64,000 nt of DNA, taken from contig OU744449.1 of the NCBI GenBank assembly GCA_916610825.1, positions 1,810,001 through 1,874,000 on the forward strand. The letters run 5' to 3'. This DNA comes from Haliclystus octoradiatus. Taxonomy: Eukaryota > Cnidaria > Staurozoa > Stauromedusae > Haliclystidae. Positions 2,216 through 54,986 of this stretch are shown here, one piece after another. Both the position numbers and the translations under genes were made by a program. Below the pieces are notes generated by a model. That model ran no database searches. It saw only the letters and a list, made by a program, of their open reading frames with translations, and was not told where the DNA came from. Numbering within the stretch: position 1 is the stretch's first letter; each line of letters opens with the position of its first letter.

Positions 2216-5179
2216 CATTATTTCATTGTATTTTCATTTTTATTCCACAATTTTTTGTATTTTAATTCTGTTTCTATCGTTTTTTGTTGAAATATGCTAT
2301 GAGAACAATGGGCCACCATAGAGAACAAAAGAATCAAAGACCATGAAGCTCAGATGCAGCATTTTTTCAAAATTATAAGAAGGCTTTGACCGTGAATCAT
2401 GAAATATAGATTGGAGTTTTGGAGTGTTTACAATAAAATTTAATTAAGACAAAAAATAGGAAATTGTTTAGCATATTTTTATGAACATTTCAAGTTGCGC
2501 GGAGAAGCCTGCCGTTTTAGTTCTGTGGCGCTATAGGTCTAATAGCACTGTTGGTAAAGCGATTGATTAAAATAACAACTGAACAAGTTAACAATGAGAT
2601 ATATGGAAGAGATTGAAAGATCGATCAACTTCTAGGAATAACAAAAATACATAACGATTTTCCATTGTTCAACTTTGAGGATCACGCAACACGATAATGC
2701 GAATGCTTATTCCGTACAATAACCAAAAAACAAAAGCAATCTTTGTCTTACAGAAAAATAAAAGAGATTCTCTGATAAAAATTTAGCCAACAAAAAACTG
2801 AAATTATATCAAAAATATAGACCGAATAAGCTCTATCTGTCAAAATTATAAACATAGCACATTTTTACGGCATCACCGGAACAACGAACATTAAAATAGC
2901 CAGTAAAAATACTAAATCACTGGCTCAACTCTGAGTGTGATTATAGCAGCAATCGATCCTCACTTGTTTGTTTCCTTGAATCTATTATAACAGAAAATTA
3001 TTTTACTTACCATATTCTCCTTGTATAAGACACGCCTGTTTGTATAGGCTTAGAAATGAATTTCATTTGATCTCCTGAGCAGAAATACAGTATATGCTCA
3101 TGATCGTCACACTATGAAATTGAATTGCACGATCTTTATGCAAAAACAAAAGACGAAACGTCCTTAGTGAGCAAGGTAAAAGTGTAACAAAGTATAACAA
3201 GATAAAACCAAATAGGAATAAAATAAAATGTATACGCGTACATGCAGATACAAGTTGTTTTGATCGAATTGTTCTCAAACTTCATATTTATGAATTCAAA
3301 TAAGCAACCATTCTAACTTTGAATAAAATATTCCACAATTTGTATAAACTTTTTTAGCGTGATAAGAAGATACAATTTCTTTAAGTGATTATCTCCCTAT
3401 GAACTACAACAAACATCGTTGTTATTCGTATTCTTGTAAAATTATGATATTTGTACAAATACATATTTTCCTGAATAATCTCAACTACTAATCCAAATCT
3501 TACTAAATTGTCACCTTTGTAAGTTTGTATTGATAATGAAATTGATGCCATCAATCTTACTGGTTTAGACCTATACGACGTTTTATCAGAGTATCAACAC
3601 AACCAATACCAAGTTCGAAAACGCAATAAATGAAATCGACCTTATAAATTCGATCTTTTGACTTCAGGAAAAGGAATTTCGATTTTGGTCATTCATTATT
3701 TCATGCGTAATACAGTTTATAAAATTGTAGCCTTGTTTTTGTACAAAGCAATTGGAGAACAGTCTCAACATACAAGCCAGCTATATTTTTTACGCACTTG
3801 ATGCGCTTTTAGAAAAACTTGAACTGAGGCAAAAACAATCAAAGCGGTGGCTATCCTGATTTCATGATGGATTTCTTCTTGTTTTCTCTCTGAAGGTCTG
3901 GATTATACAACGCGCTCTCGGGTTGACAGTTGCCGTACTTTTGTTTACAGTCATGTGGTAGTTGGCTCCCAGTTGGTGCACCCATCTAACTAGACACGGC
4001 TAATGAGGCTCCAATAGGCGTACATGACCTCCTCATCTCCCCGAAACATTTTCTCTGTCTCCCTTGCAAGTAAAATTGTTGATGCTTCCTGATTTTGCTC
4101 ACGTCCCCTCGAGGATATAGTTATCAGAAACATGACACGTTTAATTTACATTCATAAATTCTAATAGATAATCATTTTTTATTTTATTTTTCAAGTAAAA
4201 ACTTTTGATGGATTAGTTTTTAATGTTTTAATATAATTTAATGAAACTTAATTCAAACACAACTCGTGTTTGAAGAAATGTTGCTTCTTTTTCCAATTAC
4301 CATTTCTCAATTACTATCGATATTATTTCTTTTCATTTTCAAATCGAATACATTTCAAACAACAAAATATCTAAAATATATATTTGTATATAATCTGATA
4401 CATTCACAATTAAATTCTAATCTTTAACTTTCTTAATTTGAATAAAATTGATACAATTATCAGATTATATTGATATCTGATATCTGATATTGCACAACAA
4501 CTGATTTCATTATCAGCCCAAACGTTATGATTTGTTTTCGAATTACCAATTTCTAACTAATTAAAATGTGTCATCATTAAAATAGTCTGGAATATTATTA
4601 GCAACTTTCTTTCTTGTTTCCTGACTGGATTGCCTATAATTGAAATAAAATGGGAATAATTGAAAGTTCTGCATATCTATCATTTTTGGTTTCAGTAGAA
4701 ACCTTTCGTTTTGGAACTTTCTCCAGGGGCTGGAAATGAGAAGTAAATCAAAAACCTGTTGGAGATTGATCGTCAGTTAATTATTTCTTAGTATATATGT
4801 ATTTTTTTGAAAGAGAACAAATTTATGCGAAAATTTTTGAAACATCCACCAATAGGTCAGTCTGAAAACCAAACAATTCGCTTGGAAAGACGCAACGCAT
4901 ATAATTGTGTTTTTGATGTATTAAAATACATTGAAATTCATTCATGTTATGACTAAATGTTACAAATTTGACATGTTAATCGTTGATTAAATCAGTTATT
5001 GATTTCAGGCTCGATGAATATCTGCATAATGACCTCGGCAAATCCCAATCATTATGAGCTGATTGTCACATTGCCTTTGAATAATAACTGTTAATTGTTG
5101 TTGGATTAATCATTTGCATGTTTTGGGTGGTTAGTTAGTTAGTTGGAGAATGTTTTGTAGTGTTTGTGAGTTTAATAAC

Positions 5180-5768: not shown

Positions 5769-8700
5769 CTGGAATGCTGCACACAATCGTATATGTAGGC
5801 ACAAAAGTCAGAACCAGGTCAGAACATTTCCGACTGCATTTCTCAAATTTTCGTCTCGTACATGACTTAATACCAGAATCGTATATATGTTACAACGTAG
5901 TTTTGTCAGACAACAATATCTGATACTGTAGTTATAGATGTCACAATCAATAATCCAAAATATGTAAACATTTGTTAAGGGGATTTTGAACAGGCCTGTT
6001 CTAGAATCATGAAATCAGTGAGATGCGAAGAAGACGTTAGGAGAAACTTACTTGAATGTCATTGCACTGTTGTCTAATAATAAAATAGGGCGTGGCGGTA
6101 AAGGAGGCATCGATTCACTCTCAACGAGTGTAGACAAACGAACTGATGGATAGATTGAATCCCTGTTGATGAAAAATTAAAAGAAAGTCATTGCTCAATG
6201 TATCTTGACAATGCGACTTCCGGCAGAGAATGGGGCTTTCCGTACATGTTGGCTGAGCATGCCTAAAAATTGAATATCCAAGATTTTATACACGAGTGCA
6301 AGCCTATAGAGCTTTCTCACAGGTTCTCAAAGAGTCCTCAAGAATCATTAAATAAAAAGATTAATAACCGCTGTGGTGTATTTTGAAAAGACCGCGAACC
6401 CAGGATGTGTTGTTATACCATATCAGCATAAAAAAGTAATGTAGACGGTGTCGCCCTACCGAAGGCAACCGTACCACTCCTCTATTTCTAGATGAGTGGC
6501 TTTTTTCGCGGAGAGCAATGGTTTTTAAACACTCTTTGATGATCTCAGCCGCGACACTGCAGATCAATTTCAACAGATTTCACGGCAGATAGGTCTTGAT
6601 TGTCAATGCGCAACGATGCACTGCAGCTACTTACAATGCAATTCCCTCTGGACCATTCCATCCGCCATCCTCAGATGGTACTCATTTGATGTTTCAGATA
6701 AAGTCAAGGCTGAGTTGACCTTAGGAGGATTTGAACCACGGTCGATCAGATATGATCCGATCTGAAGTTTGGTTGCTCTGCCATCTGAGCCAATCCTCCT
6801 CAGCATCTAATCCTAATCCTAATATCAGCATGGCCAATGTATAAAAGCTTTACACACAGGAAAAATGTAATTCTTGCAAGAATATTATAAGAATATCTAA
6901 GTACAATTAACTTGTTTCAAGCCAAAAATAAATTATTGCAATTCAAAATCGCTTAAAAGTTGGACATGTTAATATAACATAATGTAACAAATGTAATAAA
7001 ACGACCCATTTTTGAGCAAAACAAGTAATTTGTTGGCTTGAAACAAGTTTAACTGACATCAGAATAAGCCAAATATTCTTGCAATAATTCAATGTTTCAG
7101 GTGAATGAAGTCATTGCAATTGAATCAAAGTCTAAACACAATTATACTTCCAAATATAGACGGTTTTGTAATTTGTTTCACGCGGTGTTCTAAAAGTCAG
7201 TTGGAGTTTGATAAAATGAGAAAGACGATAATACTTACTTGGTAGCAGTAACAGTAGTACTTCGCATTGGCTCTGGATCCTGACTATGAGTTGAACAATC
7301 ATAGAATTTGGCAATTTCATGAATGACGCGGCGTTGAATAGATGACATTGCTTTGAATGAATGAGTGCGCTGACTAACACCAGACTATGAAAAAATTATA
7401 ATGTCTTGTGAGTATTGTAAAATTTTTCAGAAACTTTCTACTAAGAAACTCAAGGAACAAGCAAAGCAAGATGTAATTTATGTGAAAAATATGGATTCAC
7501 ATAGATTATGTTAACTAATTAATTATCCATCTATCCCCTGTCGGAAAATGTAAACACACATTCAATCATGGGATTAACTTCAGTAGAACAATTATAGAGG
7601 AATAGGTTTGAATACTTGTATATTTGCTAATTCCTCCCAACATGAAAAAAAAATGTGCAAAGTTGGCATTGTTGACCGGTAATTGTTTGGTATACGGTTG
7701 AGTATGACAATTACAAAGCATGGTAGAATGGTGAATAATCAAATAATGAGAAAAAATAAATAAATTTTGTAAAAACAGGATAATATTGTTGGTTAAATTG
7801 ATGATTCAAATAAAATCATATTTCTTGTACCTTAGGCTAGGGTTATATGGACGCACCGAACTCAATTGATTCATTCATTCGAATTGAATCTCATGATAGC
7901 GCGCTTCGTATAACATCATTCGGTTCATCAACATTCCTCAAAAAACATTAAGTGCGTCAAGCTAACTCCGCACGTCAAGCCTTGACGTGCGGAGCTCTTC
8001 TTCGTGAATTAAATTCATCGCGGCGTTATACGAGCGAGCTATCATCGCACCGAACTAAATACATTCCACTCACGGTGCCGCGACTGAGCTCCTATATCTA
8101 CCTTATATGGCAATAAACCGGGGGAAGTGCAAATCATAAATCATTTTAAAGGATGTTTCCATGGCAATGCGATGGAAAGAACATCGCTTTTGGGAAGTTG
8201 TTATGGTGACTTGTTTATATGATTGAAAGATGGCTGACAGGGAAGCTGATGTTTTCCAAAATCACGATTTAAAACATTTAAAAACGCTTTCTTCTAGTCA
8301 ATCACAATGCATCAGCACTAGAATTGGGGTCGCTTTTATCATAATACGTTATTTTAATGGAAATTCGCATTTCATTTGCTCCGAGTACTATGCCTTGCTA
8401 GAACAAAAACTGTCTCCCGTAAAAATGCTTGCAAACCTTTGAGATTACTACTTCATACAAGTTTTAAACTATTGATAGGCAAAATAGAACGAAAAAATCG
8501 CCGAAAGTAAATAATAATGAAAACAAAACACTCTGGTTTCAAACCATGCGGTATAATTCCAAGAAAACTACTTCCTATCACGTGACATTTTGGCCAGTTT
8601 TTAAAGATCTTCGACATTTGGTTCGTCTGTATAACCCCAAATGCGAATTTAATGCTATTCTGTGCCGCACCTAATTCGAATTGAGTTCGGTGCGTCCATA

Positions 8701-11700
8701 TAACCTTAGCCTTACGAGAGTGTCCGATAATAGGATTAGCCCTCCGGAAACTTAAATCATAATGCTATTACATCATAAAATGTATTCACTTCTGAATTTG
8801 CTATGCCCCTCCGTGATCTAGGATCCCAGGATTCCCACTTCTTTGTCTTGCCCTGGCCTGCACTAATAATTGTATAACAAAGAAATACAAATTGTGATCA
8901 GTTTGAACTTACTCTTTTCACTGACAAGATAATATCCTCTATAGATGATTCAATCGATTTGATCAAAGGCAAATTTTCCCTGTAAGATTAAAATTACATT
9001 CAATAGAAAATTTATGTACACGTCATATTTTATACATGTAAAAGAAAGTTGCTTCAAATGCATGTCGCAAATAACTCTCCAAATTCTCCATGAAAATGTT
9101 TGAACAGTAGTATCAATGGAATCATCGTGTTTTGACCTTTGTTTTTATTTGGTTTGTTGTTTCATTTTCGTTTTGTACTCTTTGTATCGAAACAAAACGT
9201 ATCTTTTGATTTTAGGGTCTTTGCAGATCTACACTTGCTATTGATCGTGGGTTTCTATTAATCGCGAGGGATCTCCCCATCGATCTCTTTAATCCAATTC
9301 GGCCCAGCAACACGGGTAACTCATTGCTAGTATAGCATACGATGAAACCTGTATGTAGCAGGCAAAGGTGAGATGTAGAGAAATTGCCCACTACTTTGAG
9401 TAAATTCTCACTTAGTTTAAGTAAATTCTTACTCAGTTTAAGAATAATTCTTACTTAAATTCTTACTTAGTTTATGTAAATTATTACTTAGTTCAAGCAC
9501 ATTCTCACTTAGTTTTTATGATTAGTAGGGTCTGCGTAATATCGTAAGAAAGCTTGCGCTTGACTGAATCAGGGGAGTGGCTAAACGTGAGAAATCAATT
9601 ATTTGTTCACCAGCCAATTACATTCTGGTTCTAGTTTTGCAGAACTTGCTAGCGATTGGCTGATGAACAATAGACGAACAACAGAACAATATTACGCAGA
9701 CCCTACTAATAATAAAAAAGATTTGGGTCTGCGCGCAGGCGATTTCTCACTTAGTTTGAGTAAGTTCTTACTTAGTTCAAGTCGATTCTCACTTGATTCA
9801 AGTAAATTCTTACCTGGTTTAAGTACATTCTAATATAGTTTAGGTAAATTCTTACTTAGTTTGAGCAAATTCTTACTTGGTTAAAGTAAATTCTCACCTA
9901 GTAAGTTCTTACTTGATTTAAGTAAATTATTACTTCGTTCCAGTAAATTCTTACTATAGTTCTTTTTGGTTTAAGTGAATTCTTACTTGGTTTGATCTTT
10001 AAGAAATTGTGAATAAGCAGGAGGACTTGGTTTGCTTGAGTCACCTTCAGTTTTGCCAAATGCCATAGCTAATCGTCTACAAACAGGAATAAGAAATTGA
10101 GCTTGAAACAGTATACGGAACCAACTTTCTATGTAATTGATATCAAACAATATTGCCTATTCCTGATATTGAAATAAATGTCATAGTAAGAAAACGAATC
10201 ACTGGGGGGGGGGCATATCATTCAGACTAGAATAGAATACCACCAAACACAGTTCAGTGTTCAATGGCCTATAACAGTTTTCGATAATAATTAAAATGCA
10301 TTGTGGAAAAATAGGAATAAAATATCCTCGCAATACAAAGAACAGATCATACAACAATTTATTTGAAGATCACTTTCAAACGTGGATAAGCCCTGAACTA
10401 GGAAAAGATGAGAAAACAAGGAAATAAGAGTCAGAACTTCTAAATAAATATTTTTCAATTATTTCAAAATATTTTTCAAACATTTCAATACTAACCTGTT
10501 GCGCTCTTGAGTTAAACATTCTTCATCACATGGTAAACTGAAAAAGGGTATGGAAATACATTTTTGAGAAGAAAAATGTGATATGCACGGAGGTTGTCAC
10601 CATCTCTACAATTCGTTAGCGGGACTTCAGGCGCGATGCCTGACGAGCTACGACATCAGAAGGTCTCTGATGAGTTCCTTGGCAGGAACGAAACACGTGT
10701 CAGACCAGCCTCATCAAAAATGCGATAGTACTTTATAAACCATTTTTTAACCGTTTTTGACAGAGTAATCAAATTTCAGATCTGATCGTATCTGATCGAC
10801 TGTGGTTCAAATCCCCCGAAGGTCAACTCAGCCTTAATTTTACCTAAAAAAATCAACTGAGTACCATCATTGAATGATGGGGGTGGAATGGTCCAGGGGA
10901 AATTGCATTGTGAGTAGTTAGCGACGCATTGAGAATCGAGGGCTATCAGTTGAAATTGGTCTGCAGTGTTGTGGCTGAGATCAGTAAACAGCATTTAAAA
11001 ACATTGCTCTCAGGGAAAAGAACCATTCCCCTAGAAATAGGAGAGTGGTACGGCCTCACAGGAAGTGTGATACCGTCTCAATTATTTTACATATGATATG
11101 CAATGAAACTCAAAAGGTTAAAATAGCTTAACGTGTCAGCTTGTGTTTCCTGAAGTATTTCTCTTATCTCATTACGCATTTCTCTGCGTGTGTTAATTTA
11201 AAACTAATAATGACAAGCATTTCATAATTGTTTCAAGAAAAATTAATTGCAGTAACTCACTTTTTCATTTGTTTATCAGTCGAAAATAATGATGTGATGT
11301 CCACTGATTGACCAGATTGAAGGTCACGTAATTTATTACCAATTGTAGCTGACATTATCCTGAAGAAGCATCAACAACACAAAATAAACATATCAACATT
11401 ATGGGAACAACAGAATATAGGCTTTCATCACAAAGTTCATTATTATTTATTGACGCTTTTCTACAGCATTGTATGTAAATAATCTGTTTATGAGCTGACA
11501 GATTTGTTCCACAGATGTTGTTACTGCAGCACACTTACTTCTGATAACCACTTCCTGAATGTCCTTGTAGGCATGCAACTTGTTCATTACGACGTCCACA
11601 ATCACATGTAATGGTGATCTAAATCAAAGAGATATCACCATAAAAATTTACTACCACTGTGGAAAATTAACGAGTACATGAATGTGAAGTTGCTAACTTT

Positions 11701-14700: not shown

Positions 14701-17700
14701 ATATCATATCATATGTACTGACAGCTCAGTCGCAGATACAATATGCAGGAGGATGGGGTTCAATTCCAAGTTAATGCACACATGTTAATTTTTATAATTT
14801 GATTAGTGTATAATAACAAAGTGATGAAATATTTCTATATACAAAATCCCCTATTTGTTTGTGCATGTAGATTTGGGCATTATGTTTTGTGGATAAAAGT
14901 TTTAGTGATCTAATCATTCTACATACAATATGGACAAATGAATATAACATGATTATGTAGTATGTAGCAGTATGATTATTGCATATCACTTCAGACGTTT
15001 TGATAAAGTAAGATCAGCATTAAAGATAATTAAAATGTGATCTTCTTAGATCAGAAGGTGTTACCAACTACCCAGTTTGCTACACTGAGATACATCTGTT
15101 TTACAATATTATGAGGTTTAAATTAGTTAAATTGCTAGTAATATTTCATGAGTTCACGATTTGAAATTGCCCCAAGTTCATGAGCTGTTCATGAACTTTC
15201 AGGCAAATTCACATTTATGAACCAGTTAATGAAAAGATTCATAAAGTGTTCATGAACTCTTCATGATTGTTCATGAACTGTTCATGAACCCCCAAAAAAT
15301 GTTCATGAACTGTTCATTAAGATCATGGATTTTTTAAGCGGTGGAAATGATACCATCCCTGTTACAGACAGCAATGATCTTGTTTACGAAGCAATTTACA
15401 AATAAAAAATATGGATAATATTAAATGTAATAATTCAATGATCATACCATAATAGATACCATATTATTAGTATATTATCATATTAAATATATTAAGACTT
15501 AAACTTTTAAATGAAAAGCTTGCTTTATAATTTATTTTTTTAAATTTATAGAACAACATTTTATGATTGGAAACGAGATAGAATCATAAAACATTGCTCA
15601 GTTGTTAGCTTTCCAAAATTATTATAATATTATTCAAACACTAACTATTAGAATATCATCAATAAACCATTAATTATCAACTTACTAGGATGAGTACATG
15701 TGTGTGGACGTGTGCAAGGATAAGGACATTCTGGTGGGGAAGCGCCACATTGAATAGGGGGTAAATCCATTGTTGCACCACAATAACAAGATACTTCTTC
15801 AAATCCTTAAAAAAAAAAAAAAAATCACACATTAATATAAAAATAATTATCTTCGGTAGCGCAAGATTTGTGGCCTTTAGCAAACTAATTGTTCTTCAGC
15901 TAGAAACTTTTGGTATCCTACTATATGGTATTGTCTGATGTATTAAGGAGCTCTGAATGGCGGACATAGAAGCCCTTGCAGACAACAATATTCAAAATAG
16001 AATGAAAATAGAATGAAATTATGGGTATGGACTAAAAATAGACTGAAAAGGACACAATTGAGGGTTATAACGGCGAATAAAGAATGTTAAATCTCCCCCA
16101 AAAGACTGAACAATTTTTTGAACTGCTTTTCGCAGGGATAGGTTTATCATAAAGACCATCTTTCCTATGTTCCGTACAACTCTCTTGCACTAACCAACTT
16201 CCCAACATTGTTGACAGTATCCTTTATGACATAGTTCTTCGCATTTGTGATGACCACATTGTAAATTCTTTCCACAAACAAGCATACATGTATGGGTACC
16301 ATCCTTTTAAAAACAATATAAAAAGGATAAATAATACTTAATCTATTATGACAGATAACGTAAACAAGATCTTGTGCTGCTTAGCTCAGATTACTCAATT
16401 TTCAAAATACTAAATAGTATATTATTAAGACAATTGGTCATTAAACATTTTTATGTGCATTATGGGTTATCTAAACACTTGAGTTGCTGTGAGACATTCA
16501 AAAGGCTTCATAAAAATTAGTTGTTGTGATGGCCTCACGATTTTCTAATGCCAGTTCCCCGTGCATCATTATTAAACTCTCATGTTTATATAACCTATAT
16601 TGACCAAGAAAGTGTTTGATATTGTCTTAATATACCATGTAGTATTTTTAAAATTGAATGATTTGAGCTAAGCAGCAGCAGAAAACAAGATCTTGTTGTT
16701 TTACGGTATATATTTGTTTTGAATGTGTGATACAGAAAGTAGTTAGATTGATCCACATGAAGACTTGAGGATTAGCAACAATCAATGTGAAAAAAGATCA
16801 TGAGTTATCACCATTACATGTTCACGAAGGGTAAAGATCAGCTGGACCCTATCGATATTGAAAATACCAGGGGAATAGCAAATGTGTTTTTACATCAAGT
16901 CGAGCCATCGTCATTCATTTCAAGACGCTGGTGCGCATAAGTGGAACGATCTACCGTCTGCAATGAAGGAAGTCCAAAGCAGGCCTACTTTCAAACGTCT
17001 CCTTGAGAAGCACTTACGTTCTTACTATACTTTACACTTACCACTCTTTCCTGTTATTTATGCCTGTTTTTTTACTTAATGTCTGTTTTGCTGTCAACTT
17101 AGCTATGTATCAGTCCTTTGAAAAAAAGTTTGTATAACTTAAAGGTTCTGAATAAATGATGATGATGATGATGATGATTATCATCATCATCATCATTTAT
17201 TAGGACCTGATAAGTTCACATAGAACTTGTTTCACAGAATTGATTTGTGAACTTTGTGAATGTGAAATTAACCCAGTGTTTTTGAACTTTTAAAAACTGT
17301 TTTTTTTTTGTGAATAGTTAATCAAAGTTCATGAAGTGAGTGTTCATGAACATTTACTCCAATTCCTGAACTCATTAATTTTTCAACAGGTGGATCCCAA
17401 CTTTTGTCTTGCATGTAGAATAATAAAAAGAAAGGATATTATACCAAATTTGGAGAAGCAATCTGCTTGTTTTTAACTACTTTCCATCTACCATCCAACG
17501 ATCAGATTCACAGCAGATAAGAATTAGACTAATACAATATACACGTACATTGCTATATGCCATCTATTAAATATTGATAAAAACAAAGTAACATTGAGAT
17601 ATGGAAATGATTGTCGTACCGTGCAGCATTTAATATTGCATCGATGTCGTCCACAGGATTTTTTGTGATTACATCGGCGTTCACATTCAAATAGTTTATC

Positions 17701-20700
17701 TGGAAATAACAAGAAACAAAGTACATTATAGGATTTCTATGATTAAGAACCATAACTTGATTTGCGTTTTTAACTAATATAGTGGTATTACCTGATGGCA
17801 AGTCTTTACATGGTACTTCCTGGAAATACAAATAAACAATAATAGCTAAATATGGGCAGGATATTTCTTGCATAATGAACATTTGAGATTATCAGACAAT
17901 TAAACAAATATGGTTAAACACTCGTCTGTATCCTTACAAGTAATTGAGAATGTATCACCATACCGAAAGGCACCCTTATCACTCCTCAATTTCAAGAGGA
18001 GCGGCTCATTGCTCTGAGAGCAATGATGTTAATACTTTTTATTGATCCAAGCTGCGGCATTGCTGATCAATTTCAACATATTTCACGGCGGATGGGCCTT
18101 GATTGTCAATGCGCAACAATGCCACTCACAATGCAATTCCCTGTGGACCACTTCATCTGCCATCTTTAGATGGTTCTCGTTTAATGTTTTAGATAAAGTC
18201 AAGACTGAATTGACCTTCGGGAGATTTGATCTGATCAGATCTGAAGTGCAGTTGCCCTGCCATCTGAGCAAAACCTCACATCCTGCAATCCTAGATTTAA
18301 AAAGCTAAAGAGAATTCAGGCGAAAATGAACATTCTGTACCCAGTGTTCACAGGCAAGACATTGACAATCCATCAGAGAATAGTTGAGAATGTTTTAGGA
18401 TACCTAAAGTTAAATCTTTCCTCAGACACTGAACATTGTAATAAATATTATGAATTAGCAATGAGTCACCAGCGTTGCTGAGTTAATTTAAATAACATAA
18501 GTAAACAATGAAAAAATGTTACAACCAAGTCTTTGTGTACTTGGAATTCGACAATCGGTAAATTTGAGAATGAAAGTGAAAAAAGCCACAAAATTAATAC
18601 AGTAATGAAGCATTACATTTTTCTTTGTTATGAAAAACAGAAAGTGAAATACAAAATTGTCAGAAACACAACTGGACTGGGAGACAGGAAGTCTCATGAT
18701 GTATGACACAAATATCTCACTTGAAAATCGATTAGGAAAGCAGCGGAAACTGGACAACATACTTACACATACCACACATACTTGCGCAGACTTCCGCGTT
18801 TACAGGTATATATTGGTTTGATGAGAAATAGTTTGGACTGGTTACTTTGGATATCGTTTTTTTCACCCCTGCACTACCATCTCTTACCTTTGTTGAGCTA
18901 ACACATTGACATGCAACATTTGTTACAAGAATGCAACCACCACAAGGGCCTTTATGACATATCTTAGCACATTGATGTGGTTTACCTGTTAATCAATAGA
19001 CAGAGCTTATTTATATTGGAGACTACATTTGATTTAGTCAAAGTTAAACAAAAAGTATATATTGACTGCAGCAGTTAGGAAGTGTCCTGGCTACCAGACC
19101 CTGTAGGGGTGCAATGATGCCAACATTGAAGGCAAGGAATGATTAATTTCATTTGTGTTTGTAAGCGCTAGCTACCTTATGATGTTTCCAATCGTCGATC
19201 ACAGCTTTTGATCAACTTAACTCTGCTCTTTCGTGATTGATTTATCAACTTTTCGCGTTATCAAGCTATTTTGGTTCCTATAAGTCCGATTGAAGTTCAC
19301 AGTACACAGCAAAGACTTAATTCATCGTATATGGAGGCTATACAATGCGGAACATTCGTGAAAATTGCCTAATTTAAAAGAAAAGGGTAGCAAAAGTTGA
19401 CAAAGTTGGCGAGTCTGTAAGTTGACTTATCTCACCCAACCGTGTTACTGGTCACCTGGTGTTTTGAGTGGTGACAGGATCACCAGCTGGTCTACTGCAA
19501 GTCTTAATTAAATAGCTCCCACCATCCAAGCACTGAACCCCAAAAACGCACCGATATACTGTGTTTCTAATTGACACTCGTATTTAACTTTAATCATTTT
19601 CTAAGATCTAAGAATGCACATTTATCATAAGACTTCTTCTATCATGTTCTCAATCATGTCTTTTTGCTATTAGATATTGAAAATTACAGCTAACCTTCAT
19701 CTAACATCTACATGCCCAACACCCCTAGTGGCCATTTGAATGATATAGAAAAACATTATTATATTGAGTCAACTCTGTAAACTACTTGTCTGTAGTTGTC
19801 CATTATCTAGATGTTAAGCCCCAGGCAAACCAAGGCAACAAACGCTTCTGAAGTTGTGTCTTCTCCATGGCTTCTTTTAAGATCATATAAGGCTCTTTGA
19901 GTTTTCTAGAAAAGTCTTGAGAAAGTCGCTCTTGAAAAAACTGCTTCAAAACACGAAAAATACATAACACACATCTGCTGCTTGAAAGTTGCCATTGTTT
20001 TGCCCAGGGCCTTATAGGAAGTATTTACAGCAGGTTTCAGTGAACTGAAGTTTGTGATAACTCACTCATAAGAGTGATGTAATCCCTTAATAACAGGACA
20101 TCGCCTATAATAAATTTTTGAAAGTTCCCTAGGGGTGTCATTATAGACAGTTTCTACTGTATTACCTTTGGGACCGCATTGTAAATCTTTTCCGCATATC
20201 ATGCTACAGCTGGGAATAGGATCAAGACATGATAAACGTTCTTCGGCATTCGATAAATTTTTAATGAGACTTTTACCACAATGACAATATAAATGTTCAC
20301 CAGGAAGAAACTGACAAGAGTCACACGAACCAGGATGACACAGCTTGTTGCATTTGTGATTACCACATTTTAAAGATCTAACAAAACATAAAAGAGAGCA
20401 TTTCAAAATTATAACAATGCTTGATACGTGGCTTTCTAACATTATGCAAATTATAGGACTTAGATTTTGCAATAGTAATCTGAATGTTCACAAAATTTTC
20501 AATCAGAAACGGATCCGGATATGTTTAATCCACCAAAAAAAAAATACAATGAGAATCGGAATTCAATCTGAGATAATCTGGATCCGAATAATAGTATAAT
20601 CTTCTACTGATGATGATCATAAAGATAAACAATGAAATAGTTATAAAATGTTCATAAAAGATAGATCAAATAACTCAGCAAATGTTAATATCAAGGATGT

Positions 20701-30020: not shown

Positions 30021-54986
<24,966 letters not shown>

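Follow-up and report, generated by a model that had tools for sequence, protein, structure and literature searches.

The locus and the hammerhead

The window, i.e., the whole 64-kb stretch of DNA analysed here, holds a complete type I hammerhead ribozyme on its plus strand, embedded in a short repeat copy. The gene around this copy is NFX1, as judged from predicted exons and domain matches on the minus strand, and the element sits antisense in an intron of it. The features are as follows.

7238-7384, minus strand (that of NFX1): R3H exon (E 2.2e-13)
10496-10537, minus strand: predicted 42-bp NFX1 exon, with AG before and GT after it
10572-10578, plus strand: possible left flanking repeat AAAAATG (weak), 7 bp common with 10716-10722, partly inside the element
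10576-10717, plus strand: putative 5'-truncated retrozyme copy of 142 bp, unit positions 57 to 16 of 183 (0.78 unit), with 97.2% identity to the 183-nt unit from L014
10654-10659, plus strand: CATCAG, which could pair with the core's CTGATG (10667-10672) in a masking hairpin, in predicted folds only
10662-10706, plus strand: complete type I hammerhead
10662-10666 and 10702-10706, plus strand: stem I, GGTCT with AGACC
10667-10673, plus strand: hammerhead core CTGATGA
10674-10689, plus strand: stem II, GTTCCT/AGGAAC, 6 bp, with TGGC loop
10690-10692, plus strand: GAA of the hammerhead
10693-10700, plus strand: ACACGTGT, the stem III region
10701, plus strand: scissile C before A10702, cleavage site predicted from the known motif
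10702-10717, plus strand: tail AGACCAGCCTCATCAA, the family's common 3' end by the 3' alignment ends of copies, taken as the reverse-transcription start zone
10716-10722, plus strand: possible right flanking repeat AAAAATG (weak), 7 bp common with 10572-10578
16202-16258, minus strand: NF-X1 zinc finger (domain match)
18933-18977, minus strand: NF-X1 zinc finger (domain match below cut-off)
20311-20367, minus strand: NF-X1 zinc finger (domain match)

The frame of the 42-bp exon reads LPCDEECLTQERN, which we take to be NFX1-like, and the element lies on the opposite strand between this exon and the Cys-rich frames above 12.9 kb. Because the copy is antisense to NFX1, transcripts of the gene would not carry the ribozyme in its active sense. 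Only 38 bp (window 10538-10575) separate the insertion from the predicted exon, so the NFX1 branch point should lie either in these 38 bp or inside the element. Elsewhere in the window, a 692-aa open frame (44432-46510, plus strand) without a significant Pfam match adjoins a DEAD/DEAH helicase-like frame (47260-48012).

A degenerate hammerhead pattern matched once in the 64 kb and not at all in 100 dinucleotide shuffles. The original prediction, which had described the hammerhead nucleotides as complete and in order, their chance assembly as very unlikely, and their location as an NFX1 intron in antisense, is confirmed on all three points, the first by the motif parts together with the pattern and shuffle test, the second by the pattern counts, and the last by the predicted exons and the minus-strand NF-X1 and R3H matches. 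Recognition by a covariance model, which had been proposed as a check, fell short of the curated threshold, so that the first of the original refuting conditions, no hit above threshold, does hold at that score: Rfam RF00163 (Hammerhead_1) aligned over its positions 1-45 with 25.2 bits and an E value of 5e-4 for 351 bp, against a curated gathering score of 34 bits, and the Rfam scan of the whole window at gathering score was empty because 25.2 bits falls below it. Rfam listings of SPRY4-IT1_2, snoZ103 and SNORD43 were taken as chance.

Two details of the earlier structural description need correction. Stem II is perfectly paired as claimed, with six base pairs and not five; a loopless 4-bp stem III is impossible in a monomer, since in one RNA ACACGTGT gives 2 bp and a palindromic tetraloop, and an 8-bp helix can form only between two molecules. 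Such a short palindromic stem III suggests, on structural grounds, a ribozyme that would work as a dimer; axolotl motifs with weak stem III cleave much better as dimers (PMC7229834). Stem I was checked for an extension that would allow tertiary contacts between loop 1 and loop 2, and only 5 bp are evident.

A dispersed family of short non-coding units

A 21-base probe covering ribozyme and tail (GAAACACGTGTCAGACCAGCC) occurs, with at most one mismatch, at 127 forward and 116 reverse places, i.e., 243 places in the 262-Mb genome, and its reversed control at none under the same tolerance. A genome search with window 10575-10760 gave at least 73 matches (40 of 527 candidates scored), and three further queries gave at least 85, 82 and 70, largely overlapping (40 candidates scored each). 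The unit is non-coding and 183 nt (subfamily A) or 186 nt (subfamily B) long; many copies are 94-99% identical to one another's unit. Their length runs from under one to about 3.7 units (multi-unit copies: L014, L027, L079 and L080), plus one array. The exact 21-mer was absent from IMG/VR, a collection that may not include records of the source genome. A search of the whole genome with RF00163 gave at least eight matches at E up to 10 (73 of 24130 candidates scored), none above the cut-off, and at this E value matched 11 of 14 control genomes as well; L049, L050, L052 and L055 among the eight match the retrozyme unit, and L051, L053, L054 and L056 do not.

The expectation that related copies would be found in the genome has thus come true, and with it the assignment to a ribozyme-carrying retroelement, which the dispersed ribozyme-bearing family bears out; that the element is uncatalogued also stands, as far as we have searched for a published account. 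The single copy that had been described is single within the window, and the genome has hundreds. The idea of an isolated remnant does not hold, as the feature belongs instead to a dispersed family with many near-identical members and is one of its 5'-truncated insertions. With one ribozyme and less than one unit, the window copy should not release a unit by itself.

The ends were studied in 63 loci (L009-L050, L052, L078-L097), of which the array L045 was set apart, leaving 62; the window copy is L048 in this set. In L094 and L095, on different chromosomes, the ribozyme is missing from just after CTGATGA to near the tail. L032 and L083, on different contigs, have similar flanks, both with a AAATAGGTA repeat, as if both had landed at one site within another repeat family, or had been copied together.

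We took 85 ribozyme units from the copies (3 of the 62 loci gave none), and 60 of them, the window copy included, keep the core and enough stem pairs by our own rule. Comparing copies by mismatch rate revealed no clear conservation of the ribozyme above the rest of the unit (3.2% versus 3.8%; 3.0% versus 3.3% without CpG). A paired change in stem II from T-A to C-G, read by eye in 8 of the 85 units at six loci, may be one event. The folds are no more stable than those of shuffles (z -0.65 and -0.94). When the ribozyme was enforced in circular folds, 27 of 31 units (two units listed twice) were foldable, at a cost of 4 to 34 kcal/mol above the free fold (27 circles, RNAfold). In the free circular fold most core bases are paired in all 27, with upstream partners in 23 and downstream partners in 4, and CATCAG is the masking partner in the one structure printed; please note that RNAfold ignores the tertiary contacts of the ribozyme and that core masking is a lead only.

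Ends of the copies and their flanks

Taking the first base after the cleavage site as unit position 1, we find that the alignments of 59 of the 62 copies stop on their 3' side within unit 8-34; these ends centre on AGACCAGCCTCATCAA or AGACCAGCCGCTTTATCAA, some 15 nt after the cleavage site. The three exceptions are L091, which ends at 183, i.e., the cleavage site itself, and L094 and L095, which lack most of the ribozyme and, by eye, keep a TTTATCAA-like 3' end. The 5' starts are scattered from unit 1 to 174.

Repeats of at least 10 bp flank 30 of 58 copies (one of them, L025, a simple AAT repeat) versus 0.48% of cross-paired flanks in a test confined to the flanks, and repeats of at least 12 bp flank 19 of 58 versus 0.09%; L045, L091, L094 and L095 had been left out beforehand, and L027 failed the anchor. 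The duplications are mostly 9-15 bp long. The other 28 copies, the window copy among them, have no flank repeat of 10 bp; the repeat of the window copy shrinks to 6 bp in this stricter test and is not above chance. A first version of the test (33 of 62 copies with at least 10 bp versus 3.1%) had counted the element's own overlapping ends (L009, L033, L038 and L039) and was replaced, and an automatic typing of 3' ends, which mislabelled copies including that of the window, was not used. In several copies, additional bases separate the left repeat from the element.

A common 3' end, scattered 5' ends, flank duplications and extra bases are the marks of target-primed reverse transcription, and from this pattern we consider it very probable that the retrozyme is inserted by target priming. 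At the 3' junction, 27 of 50 copies have a flank that matches the unit for 3 nt or more beyond CATC, versus 4.7% of control windows (L045, L091, L094 and L095 omitted; 9 of the 59 rows failed the anchor, and the anchors of L035 and L037 look misplaced). Such continuation may mean that target and template paired over a few bases, or that the start varies slightly in position.

Template: circle or linear multimer

Since the inserted sequence runs through the ribozyme site and some 15 nt beyond it, the template cannot have been a linear unit released by cleavage and would have been circular or multimeric. The positions at which copies start help to weigh the two. In the 38 copies of the window-query set, 15 start at unit 1-24 (7.2 expected, p 0.003) and 8 at unit 10-16 (2.1 expected, p 0.001) under an exponential length model, the position windows having been chosen post hoc and the p values being guides only. 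The element part of this query is only 142 nt long and hence does not favour whole units. Among all 60 copies (window copy and L052 omitted), a set that includes copies from full-unit queries and in which the conversion of subfamily B to A positions is rough, 26 start at 1-24 (11.0 expected) and 15 at 10-16 (3.2 expected). By eye, L014 makes about two whole laps and L079 about three. This excess of whole laps favours a circle as template, since on a circle the enzyme would meet its own start. As far as we have searched, neither this excess nor the position of the shared 3' end with respect to the cleavage site has been described before.

The same element could also have been copied from a linear multimeric read-through transcript, with the ribozyme mattering little for insertion, a possibility to be taken seriously even if we find it the less probable one. 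Three of the 60 copies (L039, L046 and L086; 0.4 expected, p 0.008, again a guide) start exactly at position 1, which would fit a longer linear RNA because the cut end is there, as in run-off on a cut dimer. Furthermore, for an Anolis Penelope-like element, mutating the ribozyme left insertion in vitro unchanged, and the substrate was mainly unprocessed RNA (PMC11167929). On a linear multimer, however, stops should not pile up at the start site, yet they do so at unit 10-16 in both sets; circular RNA is moreover known for related elements in coral, mussel and axolotl (PMC7229834). Circular and linear templates may both be used, and with the start positions as our guide we lean slightly toward the circle as the main one.

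Penelope-like elements and the helper enzyme

A non-coding unit would have to borrow its reverse transcriptase. The genome has 16 GIY-YIG matches, and L057 carries a 674-aa frame with RVT_1 (E 1.4e-10) and GIY-YIG (E 1.1e-4) matches, whose 3' UTR has at least 41 matches in the genome (40 of 228 candidates scored). This 3' UTR contains CCTGAAGATGCAATTAAGCTATTGCGAAACGT, by eye a minimal hammerhead-like motif; with E values up to 5 allowed, Rfam found no hammerhead in L057, and a stem-pair script also rejects CCTGAAGATGCAATTAAGCTATTGCGAAACGT, so that the ribozyme-like motif of the local Penelope-like element would be degenerate or minimal at best. Of 20 Penelope-like 3' UTR copies, read by eye, 11 stop close to TTTATCTTGAA, 8 do so around TTTTACTGAA, and the remaining one stops earlier; these two end sites resemble the situation in the Anolis element, which has two start sites and an optional tail (PMC11167929). 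Such 3' UTR copies often stand head-to-head, a few hundred bases apart (G000:C11:7817463-7818309, C7:24545773-24546370, C5:336449-337806 and others). At L016, a reverse-oriented Penelope-like 3' end lies a few hundred bases downstream of the retrozyme, after a stretch that by eye resembles part of the unit.

The retrozyme itself was rejected as a piece of a Penelope-like element: the unit, compared with 24 Penelope-like loci, gave no convincing similarity (best 12 nt, E 0.7), and it is 183/186 nt long and not a frame with reverse transcriptase and GIY-YIG. In starting internally, some 15 nt after the cleavage site of its hammerhead, the retrozyme works like Penelope-like elements, with no membership implied. 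CTTTATC lies near the 3' ends of both subfamily B and the local Penelope-like element; being short and absent from subfamily A, it is a weak lead.

With Penelope-like elements present in the genome, and a start downstream of a ribozyme or ribozyme-like motif in these as in the retrozyme, a Penelope-like helper is, by a small margin of belief, the one we would name. A LINE or another target-priming element in this role is a somewhat improbable but real competitor: retrozyme and Penelope-like loci have no long sequence in common, and the continuation of the flank past CATC in about half of the copies would suit it, the Anolis enzyme by contrast starting at a site without homology to its target (PMC11167929). 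Against a LINE-type helper are the presence in this genome of Penelope-like elements with reverse transcriptase and GIY-YIG, and the two end sites of the local element, which lie downstream of a ribozyme-like motif as in Anolis.

Interpretation of the element

We conclude that the feature is in all likelihood a non-LTR retrozyme of the kind found in animals, i.e., one copy of a retroelement that is dispersed through the genome, non-autonomous and without coding capacity. That the repeats are instead satellite-like DNA, multiplied at the DNA level without any role for the hammerhead, is very improbable. The array at L045 (G000:C7:7647800-7655300, array at about 2537-5023; 2.5 kb of 177- and 144-bp repeats) does look DNA-amplified, because its 144-bp repeats lack the 5' strand of stem I, and it seems to be a single insertion grown in this way; yet by eye even L045 ends at the common tail with a 12-bp flank match, and the dispersed copies have the common 3' end, scattered 5' ends and flank duplications. 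A host function of the hammerhead as an intron ribozyme acting on NFX1, which its distance of 38 bp from the predicted exon might suggest, is hardly credible given its antisense orientation and the near-identical copies at many other places.

For the retrozyme, the following route would account for the copies. A copy of more than one unit would be transcribed, its hammerheads would cut the RNA into units and a host ligase would close these into circles; a borrowed reverse transcriptase would start at the CATCA tail on a nicked target, read across the closed junction and often stop on return to its start, and the cDNA would be fixed with a target duplication. The window copy would then represent a stop after 0.78 lap. 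Taken as a whole, this would mean that the junctions preserve the traces of reverse transcription on RNA circles made by the ribozyme, with a start fixed some 15 nt beyond the ligated site, stops by preference after whole laps and a few stops exactly at the ribozyme cut. The circle would then be the template for target priming, and a Penelope-like enzyme would start on it internally. This is a tentative reading that we hold with rather less than even confidence.

Comparison with known systems

The closest known relatives are the metazoan non-LTR retrozymes of Cervera & de la Pena 2020 (PMC7229834). Like them, the family has a type I hammerhead with complete core (Rfam score below gathering), a non-coding unit within about 150-450 bp (183/186 nt; 170-400 nt there) in tandem and single copies, many genomic copies (243 places), target duplications longer than 4 bp without 3' end variation of the LTR kind, no LTR features, and coexisting Penelope-like elements. 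Unlike them, it occurs mostly as dispersed copies that range from less than one unit to a few and share their 3' end, and in its predicted circles the core of the ribozyme is masked; in most of the animal retrozyme circles described in that paper the ribozyme stays free. Of stem I only the 5 bp noted above are evident, and an extension with loop contacts was not recognised. Amphibian satellite 2 and the axolotl retrozymes, as described in PMC7229834, also have a stem III of about two pairs with a palindromic tetraloop, suggesting dimer action; their unit is 330-350 nt long, not 183/186 nt.

The minimal hammerheads of Penelope-like elements, as described in PMC7229834 and PMC7761336, agree in type I layout and in a reverse-transcription start downstream of the ribozyme, and differ in sitting in protein-coding elements; the local Penelope-like motif is of other sequence and has no long similarity to the retrozyme unit. 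According to these two sources, plant LTR retrozymes are likewise non-coding, ribozyme-processed retroelements, with the differences that they have type III hammerheads, LTRs, 4-bp duplications and units of 600-800 nt.

The kind of element is thus already known in animals, and what the present copies add is in their ends, which record the route back into DNA. A 2020 review (PMC7761336) states that animal retrozyme repeats are without a conserved motif that would reveal the helper retrotransposon. The 3' ends, duplications and lap lengths in this genome are such a helper signature, one that can be searched for in coral, mussel and axolotl genomes, and they would make two questions testable from genome sequence alone: whether an RNA circle is the template, and whether a Penelope-like enzyme is the helper.
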